NCBI RefSeq assembly: GCF_022814725.1
Contig: NZ_CP093442.1
Span: 372,001 to 436,000, forward strand
From: Bdellovibrio reynosensis
GTDB lineage: Bacteria > Bdellovibrionota > Bdellovibrionia > Bdellovibrionales > Bdellovibrionaceae
Length of the DNA: 64,000 bases
Reading direction: 5' to 3'
Each line of letters opens with the position of its first letter. Position 1 is the first letter of the stretch. The position numbers and the translations under genes were made by a program. Positions 43,082 to 47,525 of the stretch are shown in pieces. The notes under the pieces were generated by a model. That model was given only the letters and a program-made list of their open reading frames with translations, ran no database searches and was not told where the DNA came from.

Positions 43082-45010
43082 GTGGACGCTAATAAATCAA
43101 AGATTCTGATATTAGAAGATGACCAAACGATCGGCGTGGCTTTAAAAGAAGTTCTTGCCCGAGCGGGTTATAGCGTCTTTCTTGCGACTCGTCCTGATGA
43201 AGCCAACTCGATATTAACATCTAATACCAATATTGAATTCCTTTTCTGTGACTGTCTTCTTCCACAAATGACAGGTCTGGATTTCATTAAGCAGGTTCGC
43301 GGCAATTACCCGAACTTGCGCTTTAAAGTCGTTTTAATGAGCGGTATCTATACCGATAAAAGCTTCATCCAAGAAGCGTCTCAAGCGACAGGGGCGGTTG
43401 CATTCTTAAAGAAACCATTTGAGATGGAACAAGTTCTAAAACTTGTTAAAAAAGAAGAAGCGCCAAAACGTGAAGAAGTCGGCGCCAGAAAACTTCTTTA
43501 TCAAATGTTCGCAAATCCCACAGTGACCAATCGCCAAAAACGGAAGGTGATTGAATCCATCGAAGAAGTGAGCGGTTTTGACTTACCATTTTTATATTCC
43601 TTATTGGCAGAAACAAAGAGCAGTGGATATTTAAATATCTACAATGCTGATGGTTCTGTTTCCGGTATTTCATTCTGTAATGGCACGATCGTCGGCGTAG
43701 ACGTTGATGATAAAACAACATTCCTAGGTGAGATGTTGATTCAAAGTGGTTACGCGACACCTAAAGACGTGCAAACGGCTTTGCGTGACAAGAACAATCG
43801 CCGCATTGGTAATTACTTAATTCAAAACAATCAGCTAAGCCCCCACGCGTTTGATTTGATCCTGATGGAACAAATGAACATCCGCTTGGTTAGAACGATC
43901 GTAGATCAAAAGATCCGCGTGAATTTCGCCTCTGCAGAAGTAGAGATGAGCAGCCCCAGCATTGACGCTGACAGCTTGTCTTATTACTTGCATGACTGGA
44001 TCGCTTCAAAACTTTCAGTAAGCTGGTTAAAGTCTTTATATGTAATGTGGTCGGGGAACGTGATCGTAAAAAGTCCAACCTTCCGCGAAGATCATCCTGC
44101 ATTAAGCATGAGCTTGATTAAGACGCTAGAAGGTTTAACGGTAAAGTTAAACAATCAAATGACTTTAAGTCAGCTTTTAGATGTTAAAGGATACAGTGAA
44201 GTAGCTGTTTATAAAGCGATCCACTTCCTATTAACAAAAGGTCTAATCGTTTTTGCTCAAAGAGCTGCTTTCGCAAATCCGCAAGAGCAATTGAAAGTAT
44301 TAAAGAAAATCTGGGCAGAACTAGAAAGCAAAAACGGATACGACATCGTATCGTACATGGAAACAGGTTCTGGTGGCACATCTCTAGACGGCGCCCTCCA
44401 AGACTTCATGACATTAATCGGTGATCAACCCCAAGATACAGCGTCAGAGCTATATCAAGTATGGAACAATATTAAAAAAATCGCCGAAGAATCTGTAGCC
44501 ATGGCAAAAGATTCGAGCAAAATCGACCAGTACCGCCAAGCTTCGAAAAAAACAGAAGCCGAAGCAAAACTAAGAGCCGCTTCATTAATGGAAGACGTTA
44601 AAAAAGCATTGCAATACAACCAATACGCAAAGGCTTTAGAACACTTAGCGGAAATCGCTAAACTAAATCCACAAATGCAACAGTTACACGTCTACAGCTC
44701 ATGGGCAAAACTAGGCGCTCTAGATCCAGCAAAAAAAGTATTTCAAATGAAAGAAATCGAATTGGAACTAATGCAAGTCCCACCAGACGAGCGTTACGAC
44801 ACACTATTCCCATTCGTCATCGGCCTATTCAATAAAGCAAAAGGAGATGTGGTAGCAGCACGCAAATCTTTCGAAAAAAGCGTAGCCTTAGACCCATCCT
44901 TCATCCCTGCACGAAGAGAAATCTCTCTGTTGTCAGCGGCAAACAAAAAACAAGACGTCTTCAACATGGACCTAAAACAAGTCGTCTCTGGTTTCTTCAA
45001 GAAAAAATAA
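43082..45010 (+). CDS. Response regulator with DUF4388/PATAN-like middle and TPR-like C-terminus
   Basis: The start is GTG 43082. The 642-residue product has a receiver (about 1-125, phospho-acceptor Asp57 in 'FCDCLLPQMTG', 'LKKPFEM' near 115). A DUF4388/PATAN-type region follows (about 160-330, 'SGYLNIYNADGSVSGISF', 'LGEMLIQSGY'), then a winged-helix-like stretch (about 360-410), a helical linker (Lys/Glu-rich, about 480-520) and TPR-like helices (about 525-620). No DNA-binding family is obvious. PATAN-type regulators in Myxococcota and Bdellovibrionota bind small GTPases or other signalling partners. It closes the signalling block. Codon use in the last third shows frequent comma-like A/T third positions, but the frame is unbroken. 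Confidence 0.8.
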   Translation: MDANKSKILILEDDQTIGVALKEVLARAGYSVFLATRPDEANSILTSNTNIEFLFCDCLLPQMTGLDFIKQVRGNYPNLRFKVVLMSGIYTDKSFIQEASQATGAVAFLKKPFEMEQVLKLVKKEEAPKREEVGARKLLYQMFANPTVTNRQKRKVIESIEEVSGFDLPFLYSLLAETKSSGYLNIYNADGSVSGISFCNGTIVGVDVDDKTTFLGEMLIQSGYATPKDVQTALRDKNNRRIGNYLIQNNQLSPHAFDLILMEQMNIRLVRTIVDQKIRVNFASAEVEMSSPSIDADSLSYYLHDWIASKLSVSWLKSLYVMWSGNVIVKSPTFREDHPALSMSLIKTLEGLTVKLNNQMTLSQLLDVKGYSEVAVYKAIHFLLTKGLIVFAQRAAFANPQEQLKVLKKIWAELESKNGYDIVSYMETGSGGTSLDGALQDFMTLIGDQPQDTASELYQVWNNIKKIAEESVAMAKDSSKIDQYRQASKKTEAEAKLRAASLMEDVKKALQYNQYAKALEHLAEIAKLNPQMQQLHVYSSWAKLGALDPAKKVFQMKEIELELMQVPPDERYDTLFPFVIGLFNKAKGDVVAARKSFEKSVALDPSFIPARREISLLSAANKKQDVFNMDLKQVVSGFFKKK

Positions 45011-45019
45011 CGCTCTTAG

Positions 45020-45268
45020 CTTCGATCGAAGTTCGGAATGGGAAGGCTTAGGCTCCTAGCTTGGTGCTTGGCTGTCTCCATGAACACGCCATCCTGGCTC
45101 ATCGCCGCCGCACTTCGTGCGGTTCGCGCAAGGTTGAGGGCTCCTGCCCCCAACCCCTTCGGGGCTGACGCGCAAAAATAGCATCCTGCTATTTTTGTCA
45201 TGGCGCCGGCGAAGGTTCATTCCGCATCCACAGCACAGAGCTAAGCCCCAAGCCCTTCCCATTCCGAA
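45020..45268. repeat. Long inverted-repeat element, copy 1 (with internal insertion)
   Basis: The outer arms 45032-45060 and 45240-45268 pair imperfectly (15 bases exact, ttcggaatgggaagg). An inner stem follows (tgaac with gttca), and then a hairpin ccgca/tgcgg. The core is homologous, inverted, to the element at 45555-45717. Copy 1 has about 60 extra bases containing two more hairpins (ggttgagggc/gcccccaacc and aaaaatagca/tgctattttt). A perfect 12-base palindrome cttcgatcgaag (45020-45031) borders its left end. Confidence 0.75.
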
Positions 45269-45281
45269 TTGCTGAGATAAG

Positions 45282-45393
45282 ATGTCATGCTTTCTTAAAG
45301 AAAAGATTCAACTTGTCTGGGAAGCGGCGAAGCCCAGGCTTTTAAAGCGCTGAGGAGAAAATTCAAAAAGTTAAAGAAGAATATGAACCTTAG
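45282..45393 (+). pseudogene. Small helical ORF split by a +1 frameshift (or two tiny ORFs)
   Basis: From ATG 45282 a 23-residue frame reads M-S-C-F-L-K-E-K-I-Q then an amphipathic stretch to LLKR and stop. The other frame (45349-45393) continues 'AEEKIQKVKEEYEP' and stops. Joined by one base shift they would give a continuous charged helix of about 37 residues. No good ribosome site is seen. The terminator at 45440 shows the stretch is probably transcribed. It could be a decayed small gene, a frameshifted gene or an RNA. Confidence 0.25.
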
Positions 45394-45439
45394 ATCCCGG
45401 TCCTCTGAATAATTCGTGTATCAACTATTGAGCAGTTCC

Positions 45440-45472
45440 TAAGGCACCTGAAAAGGTGCCTGCTTCTTTTTA
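45440..45472 (+). terminator. Rho-independent terminator in the repeat gap
   Basis: An 8-bp stem aggcacct/aggtgcct with a gaaa loop, then cttctttttt-like T-rich tail. It follows no recognised gene other than the split ORF at 45282-45393. Confidence 0.8.
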
Positions 45473-45554
45473 CGGTTTCACCGCGTCACAAAAAAAGCAT
45501 ACGAACTTAAAGTCCAAACCGAAGAATTCTTAACACAACACTCGTTGCTAGCAC

Positions 45555-45717
45555 GATTTGGGTTTGGGGTAAGGGCTTAGTTAGCTTGGATACGAAGTGA
45601 GCCTTTGTCGGCGCCACGATGGCGCGAACCGCAGCGTAGCTGCGGCGACAACTGAGCCCGGACGGCGTGCTCACGTAGCTAGCCAAGCTAACTAAGCCCT
45701 TACCCCAAACCCAAATC
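45555..45717. repeat. Long inverted-repeat element, copy 2
   Basis: Perfect 35-base outer arms (45555-45589 and 45683-45717) flank a 93-base core. Reversed, the core matches copy 1 (for example agcacgccgtccgggctca against aacacgccatcctggctca). The inner stem is gtgagc/gctcac where copy 1 has tgaac/gttca, and the apex hairpin is ccgcagc/gctgcgg where copy 1 has ccgca/tgcgg. It lies 30 bases beyond the 3' end of the gene at 45747-47525. Confidence 0.8.
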
Positions 45718-45746
45718 CGTCGCTCGCAAGCGACCAGACGCCGTGT

Positions 45747-47525
45747 TTAGAATTTCCAGAGGGCTCCACCGTTGAGGCCGATCTGCATTTCTTCAGTACC
45801 GCTTGATGGATCGAATTTGTAAGAAGAAAGATCAAGGCCGTAGCGCCAGTAGAGTTGGTTAGAGGCTTGCCAGTAGCCTTGGGCTCTTAGGATGTAGGCG
45901 GAGGTTACTTTGAAATCTCCTGTTGAGCCTAGTAGGTAGTCGAATTTTACTTCGGTCCAATGCATGAGTGGTTTTAGCCAGCGGTGTGGTTTTTTAAGTA
46001 GGAATGCTCCGACTCCGTAGGCTGTGCTGCTGACTCCTTCGGCTTGTAGCATTTGCAATGGGAAGCTTAAGCCCCATGTGGATTCGCTTAAATTGAATCC
46101 TGGTTTTGCTCTCCAGTTTAAATGCACTGTTGTGAAATCGATTTTGCCTTCGCCGGATTTTTCTATGACTTGTTGGTCTCTTTCTAGGGAAATTCCAAAT
46201 CTGAATCTAGACCAATCTGCATTGATCATCAGGAAATTTTCAAACCACCATTGGTATTCGATTTCAGCAAACGCCACAGCTGCTGGAGTTTGATAATGAA
46301 GTCCCAGGCTGATGGACATTGGGTGGCCTCTGAAGACGTCATAGCCTACTTGAAATTCGTTGTTATCCGAAGTCACCATTAAGTATCGGCGGCTTTCTGC
46401 TCCGGCAGGAATATCGCGAATGGTCCATTGGAATTGGTTTTTCTTTGTGGGTTCTACTTTCGCTGCTGTGTCTTTTTCAACAGGGCGAACTTGCACACCT
46501 TCTGGGGTGATTCCGTTGAACGTCAGGCTTGATGAGTAAGTTCTTGAAGCTGACCTAGGTGATAGGAAAGGGCGGCTTTTTTCTCTGGGTAAGTTTCCGC
46601 GCACGTAAAACTCTTGGCGCATCGGGATGTCGCCTTCGCCTTTTAGATACAGGACGGGGCGGTCCTTAGGCAAGGCTATTTGCCAATCTGTTTCGCTTAA
46701 TTTTTTAACTTTGGTTTCATCAACCGGTTCTGCGCCTGTTGCTGTAAGGATGATCTTTGTGTTGTCTTCTGAAACAACTAGATCTTTAAAGTCGACGTCT
46801 TTTTTTCTAGTTTCAACTTCAAGGAAAGCGCCAGTTTGCGTTTGAGCTTTGAACGCGACTGTCTCGCTGCGATCATTTAAATAAATGATTCCTTGATTGC
46901 CAACCACTTTACCGTTGATTTCAATTTGTGCGGATCTTTTGGTGGCTGAACGAGATTTTACCACCATCTGTCCTTGCTGCGAACTTAGGTAAAGTTCTTT
47001 AGAACACAGGTACAGTCTTGTTTCTTCGCTTTCCTTGTAAATACAAAATACCATGAAGGGGAAGTACTTCATGTCGTTAACAAGGTTGGCTTCAACCCCT
47101 TCAACTGTGAAAGTCGCGATTTCAGAGCGAAGATGTTCTTCTTCGGCTTTCTTTTGACCTTGAGTGATTTTTAATTCTTTTTTAGTGGCGATCGCATTGA
47201 AAATGGCTTTTCCAGAATTGTTTTTAATCGCTAGTTCGCCATCTTTAATCAAGCCCGCTGGCCAAGTGAAGTGAATACGGAAAGTGCCTTCTTTATCGCC
47301 CGATGGCTCAATTTGAAAAGTCACTTGCGTAGTATCAATCAGAATGTCACCGACTTTAAGGCGATCGTCATCGATCAACGTATATTCAAAACGTTGCGGT
47401 AGTACCTGCAAATTGTTTTTATCTGCTTGAAAATACAAAGGCTTCAATTTGCTAGAACCTTTACCTTGCGCCAAAACTTGCGCTGAACACAGAATCGCAA
47501 CCAATGAAATCAGTAATTTAATCAC
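45747..47525 (-). CDS. Exported beta-rich protein, paralogue of the 18493-20541 gene
   Basis: The start is GTG 47525 (GTGA overlap with the upstream NTPase gene). The 592-residue product has signal peptide MIKLLISLVAILCSAQVLA. 'KLKPLYFQADKNNLQVLP' opens the shared beta domain, and the middle block contains 'FRIHFTWPAG' and 'FQWTIRDIP'. The last 190 residues are barrel-like ('FAEIEYQWWFENFLMI') and end '...LNGGALWKF' with terminal Phe. It has the same architecture as the gene at 18.5 kb, minus its N-terminal Ala/Glu-rich extension. Function unknown; an outer-membrane location is likely. Confidence 0.72.
   Translation of the reverse strand: MIKLLISLVAILCSAQVLAQGKGSSKLKPLYFQADKNNLQVLPQRFEYTLIDDDRLKVGDILIDTTQVTFQIEPSGDKEGTFRIHFTWPAGLIKDGELAIKNNSGKAIFNAIATKKELKITQGQKKAEEEHLRSEIATFTVEGVEANLVNDMKYFPFMVFCIYKESEETRLYLCSKELYLSSQQGQMVVKSRSATKRSAQIEINGKVVGNQGIIYLNDRSETVAFKAQTQTGAFLEVETRKKDVDFKDLVVSEDNTKIILTATGAEPVDETKVKKLSETDWQIALPKDRPVLYLKGEGDIPMRQEFYVRGNLPREKSRPFLSPRSASRTYSSSLTFNGITPEGVQVRPVEKDTAAKVEPTKKNQFQWTIRDIPAGAESRRYLMVTSDNNEFQVGYDVFRGHPMSISLGLHYQTPAAVAFAEIEYQWWFENFLMINADWSRFRFGISLERDQQVIEKSGEGKIDFTTVHLNWRAKPGFNLSESTWGLSFPLQMLQAEGVSSTAYGVGAFLLKKPHRWLKPLMHWTEVKFDYLLGSTGDFKVTSAYILRAQGYWQASNQLYWRYGLDLSSYKFDPSSGTEEMQIGLNGGALWKF

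Follow-up and report, generated by a model that had tools for sequence, protein, structure and literature searches.

What is the origin of two long inverted-repeat elements that share a conserved centre, yet have paired arms that differ from one copy to the other and remain complementary within each? The elements lie in a window of 64,000 nucleotides from Bdellovibrio reynosensis (RefSeq assembly GCF_022814725.1, contig NZ_CP093442.1, positions 372,001 to 436,000; genome of 3.58 Mb, one contig), between the convergent genes 43082-45010 (+) and 45747-47525 (-). Coordinates are those of the window unless stated otherwise, and the parts of the locus are as follows.

45020-45268 (-): copy 1 of the element, core in - orientation, right end facing gene 43082-45010
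45032-45068 (-): copy 1, gene-side (right) arm
45232-45268 (-): copy 1, far-side (left) arm
45071-45230 (-): copy 1 core including the inserted module (contig positions 417071-417230, -, as matched by the core model R1)
45130-45199 (-): copy 1 insert, about 65-70 nt, two hairpins
45555-45717 (+): copy 2 of the element, core in + orientation, right end facing gene 45747-47525
45555-45592 (+): copy 2, far-side (left) arm
45680-45717 (+): copy 2, gene-side (right) arm
45587-45687 (+): copy 2 conserved core as matched by model R1 (contig positions 417587-417687, +)
44977-45021 (+): 3' end of gene 43082-45010 (last codons, stop and following bases), duplicated in inverted orientation across copy 1
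45275-45316 (-): decayed inverted copy of that gene 3' end, on the far side of copy 1
45726-45754 (-): 3' end of gene 45747-47525 plus following bases, duplicated in inverted orientation across copy 2
45525-45552 (+): decayed inverted copy of that gene 3' end, on the far side of copy 2

To determine whether the elements fold as proposed, arms and cores were aligned and each copy was compared with 200 dinucleotide shuffles. Copy 2 has 38-nt arms that are 97% complementary, with the first 35 bases perfect, and copy 1 has 37-nt arms that are 78% complementary without gaps. Both copies fold well beyond the shuffles (z -12.0 for copy 2 and -7.15 for copy 1), and the cores match at about 81% over the uninterrupted part. 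The preliminary description, which reported two oppositely oriented copies whose inner stem, apex and outer arms change in pairs and an insertion that itself folds in copy 1, is therefore confirmed as an observation. The changes it named in the inner stem and apex hold on an alignment of 14 copies from this genome, in which 93% of cells pair, the covariation score is 0.369 against 0.118 shuffled, 16 of 34 pairs are changed on both sides, and 66 cells change on both sides, with very few G-U intermediates. The insert is present in copy 1 and in three further copies in this genome, and also occurs in a second, different element family.

A search of the same genome found many further copies, and a covariance model of the 100-nt core (R1) gave 21 matches. 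In the orientation of the core, a copy reads left end, left arm, short internal loop, conserved core of about 85-100 nt, internal loop, right arm and right end. The six-helix core has an inner stem, a long stem bearing two hairpins, and a side hairpin GCC-nnnnn-GGC; the motifs CCTT, GAGCC-n-GGA-n-GGCGTG and GCGCGAACC are nearly invariant. About 25 of the further places matched in this genome belong instead to another dispersed repeat, a small hairpin AAGGCACCTGAAAAGGTGCCT followed by CTTCTTTTT, which lies at 45447-45489 in the window. The second element family (GCAAGGCGGAGG...GCGCAGGCGTAGC...GCTACGTCGGAG...) has long arms and is also found directly behind stop codons, at four extracted loci of this genome (L019, L021, L023 and L026) and at L090, L094 and L100 of three other species (genomes G002, G016 and G013).

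To establish the distribution of the family, the core was searched in related genomes. It is present in 22 of 24 Bdellovibrio genomes searched (this genome and 21 of 23 other species), with 2-30 copies each, and is sporadic in other genera of the phylum (7 of 163 genera in a 291-genome sample). An exact-pattern scan of a genome collection hit only two Bdellovibrio records, and an exact-pattern scan of viral contigs gave no match. Searches of Rfam at gathering and relaxed thresholds returned nothing for the element except a sub-threshold match to MIR1437, as expected of any long hairpin. The family was not found described in the papers searched, although that search was narrow and did not cover most subscription literature.

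A total of 143 copies from many species were extracted, and flanking genes were called by a simple longest-ORF rule. Sixty-two copies lie between convergent genes and 9 between divergent genes, although the two kinds of gap are equally frequent on a circular chromosome. The right end lies within 30 nt of a stop codon in 43 of 88 cases, and the left end in 6 of 57, so the element is typically antisense to the gene it follows. Inverted pairs of copies in one gap, as in the window, are cases where both convergent genes have one. No coding cargo was seen between paired copies, the spacers being unrelated, and no conserved promoter-like block or constant T-tract was found beside the element.

The arms are 32 bp at the median and 94% complementary over the 143 copies, yet unrelated between loci apart from a weak shared outer motif (ATTTG) and a G/T-rich composition; the 5' arm of either strand has 31% each of G and T, 20% A and 17% C. 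To determine whether the symmetry extends beyond the arms, the flanks of each locus were compared with those of mismatched loci. The flanks outside the arms are also inverted copies of each other, with z of 15.6, 14.1, 7.5 and 5.4 at 0-25, 25-50, 50-75 and 75-100 nt outside the arms. Part of this sequence is coding: the last codons and stop of the gene on the right recur, inverted and decayed, beyond the left arm, with 14 of 67 loci scoring >=28 against 1.7% of controls and 7 of 67 scoring >=32 against 0.6%. In the window this holds for gene 43082-45010 across copy 1 (score 39; reached by 0 of 2000 shuffles) and more weakly for gene 45747-47525 across copy 2 (reached by 15 of 2000), and two other species (G023 and G006) show the same at the first gene.

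Orthologous copies in close species were then compared to follow how the arms evolve. Mean divergence over 26 comparisons is about 16% in the arms, 6% in the core, 5% in the gene-side flank and 18% in the intergenic far flank, so that on average the arms diverge no faster than the intergenic left flank. In single cases, however, the arms are nearly unrelated while the core is kept: in the orthologous pair L138/L159 the arms are 57-66% identical (random 54%), the core 91% and the flanks 93-96%, with each copy still paired. In L132/L152 the core, right arm and near right flank are identical and only the left arm differs, being rewritten and a perfect palindrome in one species. Changes on both sides (89) outnumber one-sided changes (39), and the paired changes comprise 42 transitions and 47 transversions, close to the 293:356 of the flanks, as counted on 23 related comparisons, some of which share species. 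Stepwise compensation through G-U should favour transitions, whereas copying one arm from the other should not, which argues against slow compensation.

The window site itself varies between species. In G020, G018, G001, G007, G003 and G014 the two genes abut or overlap at their stops with no element; this genome (G000) and G015 have two copies, one of those in G015 lying in a masked stretch and inferred from its ends; G023 and G006 have one; G002, G016 and G013 have the second element family; and others have plain terminators. In G022 and G021 (L095 and L099, intergenic after the ortholog of the first gene) the terminator is wrapped in an extra palindrome of 20-27 bp (AAAGGTACGGAC...), a possible second case of arms copied around a hairpin. 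A cleaner empty site (L131 in G001 against G018) shows a 6-bp AAAATA repeat around the segment missing in G018, but that segment also contains a terminator, so that deletion of a hairpin between short repeats is as likely as insertion.

To identify an enzyme that might mobilise the element, candidate partners were sought; no constant enzyme was found, and no recombinase was found to go with it. Y1 transposases are not a constant partner: this genome has one Y1 gene, but G013, G017 and G008, which carry 15, 6 and 11 copies, have no Y1 match. G022 and G012 carry 12 and 10 Y1 transposase genes against 0-6 in the others, a possible RAYT expansion. No integron integrase above cut-off was found in the genome, only sub-cut-off tyrosine recombinase matches to TIGR02249, and the boxes RYYYAAC and GTTRRRY were found at the left end of 2, the right end of 1 and both ends of 0 of the 143 copies. 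In G013 three copies ride inside an IS1-like transposon of about 1.2 kb (L206:150-1400, with L203 and L204; 290-aa transposase; NF033558 E 2e-11, below its cut-off), between the transposase and the right TIR, with slightly different, co-changed arms. Its TIR AAACTGATCC lies outside the element and was not seen at the other copies inspected, and shared ends are weak; this transposon moves the element in one species but does not explain the rest.

Published transcripts were examined for overlap with the element in G006, taken as HD100, whose merRNA coordinates match: the c-di-GMP-I riboswitch is found at the published place and strand. The copy at 1,339,147-1,339,246 (-) lies inside APsRNA6 (1,338,787-1,339,441, +; 46-fold up in attack phase; PMC3627812, Table 2), so that this copy would be transcribed on the strand sense to the gene. 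APsRNA6 also contains an open frame of about 90 codons ending just before the element (L239:414-692; HD100 about 1,338,813-1,339,091), which would encode a small predicted membrane protein, so the published sRNA may be an mRNA.

The analysis itself establishes the structure, the family, its placement and the inverted flanks, such that element and flanks together form one long palindrome centred on the core; the cause and any role are inferred. The explanation favoured here, with moderate confidence, is fold-back template switching, in which the hairpin-prone core would make a DNA polymerase switch templates and copy the gene-side arm and flank onto the far side. Repeated switching would rewrite and re-match the arms, so that a mutation, or a whole stretch, changes in both arms together. 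Template switching is an established source of such changes and can create and maintain perfect stems (Monttinen & Loytynoja 2022, PMC8794818). It shares paired multi-base stem changes and inverted copies of neighbouring sequence with the present case, as does quasi-palindrome correction in bacteria, but here it would be tied to one dispersed element family and recur at its copies across a genus, including duplication of coding ends. In this view the copies disperse as a repeat and persist where a big hairpin is tolerated or useful, behind stop codons between convergent genes; in at least one case the element would be transcribed as the 3' part of a highly expressed attack-phase RNA. Several findings do not fit. 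Arm mismatches on the core strand are purine-purine 139 times and pyrimidine-pyrimidine 7 times (65 loci to 3), and some persist while the rest of the arm turns over, which pure homogenisation does not predict and which suggests selection on one folded strand or a strand-biased process. The weak shared motif and composition indicate that the arms are not simply unrelated target sequence, and no very recent insertion with a near-perfect long flank duplication was seen.

The interpretation in the preliminary description is partly supported. Its expectation of many intergenic copies with paired substitutions in Bdellovibrionota genomes was borne out, and of its two readings, that of arms copied as pairs fits better than that of compensatory change under selection, although selection on folding is not excluded. 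A selected structured RNA (a 3' UTR element or sRNA) is the main rival, and is not exclusive of template switching, but it remains a doubtful alternative. Covariation in several helices of the core, the strand-asymmetric mismatches, the excess of G-T over A-C on the core strand in some species (not in this genome, 4 to 7), the position behind stop codons and the copy inside APsRNA6 all favour it. However, double changes show no transition excess and very few one-sided intermediates, whole arms differ between close species, selection on pairing does not explain inverted copies of coding ends outside the arms, no conserved promoter-like block accompanies the element, and the strand transcribed in APsRNA6 is opposite to that favoured by the mismatches.

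A non-autonomous MITE- or REP-like transposon that carries its own arms, with replacement of one copy by another at the same site, is unlikely. The dispersed copies with a shared core, the similarity of cores within G013 (0.89, against about 0.66-0.76 to others), the exchange of element families at the window locus in G002 relative to its sister species, and the copies in the IS1-like transposon are consistent with it. However, no carried-over arms are seen except inside those G013 IS copies, there is no constant transposase, and ortholog cores often stay 91-100% identical while arms differ, which replacement would not give. REP/BIME elements and REPINs with RAYT (TnpA-REP) transposases (PMC2817692, PMC3733652, PMC8266576) are likewise dispersed extragenic palindromes at gene 3' ends in several to many copies, but REPs are 20-40 bp with a conserved hairpin, whereas this element is about 165 nt with a multi-branched core and arms not conserved between copies. 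MITEs and ERIC-type repeats are also short dispersed non-coding repeats with a large inverted repeat, but theirs is shared between copies and here it is copy-specific. Long bidirectional terminators are very unlikely despite the convergent context and the plain terminators at the same site in several species, because many copies lie behind a separate intrinsic terminator, no constant T-tract is present, APsRNA6 as mapped continues past the element, and the conserved core is not needed for termination. The resemblance to integron attC sites, suggested in the preliminary description despite its noting absent core sites, rests on imperfect inverted repeats whose fold is kept while sequence varies, and is contradicted by the lack of boxes and integrase and by copies that are scattered and not in cassette arrays.

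A bolder reading, not excluded but less likely than not, is that the element inherits only its core and builds its arms anew at each site by fold-back copying of the host gene's 3' end, and then keeps rewriting them. If so, it would be a genetic element whose long stems are templated by their surroundings, and a natural case where textbook compensatory covariation is produced by mutation rather than by selection. Covariation is the standard proof of a selected RNA structure, and this family offers about 150 sequenced copies in which strong covariation comes with signs of mutational coupling (inverted copies outside the stem, a neutral substitution spectrum and whole-arm rewriting), making the template-switch hypothesis of stem evolution directly testable in a culturable bacterium. 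It is also a large, apparently undescribed repeat family in predatory bacteria that overlaps at least one abundant transcript.
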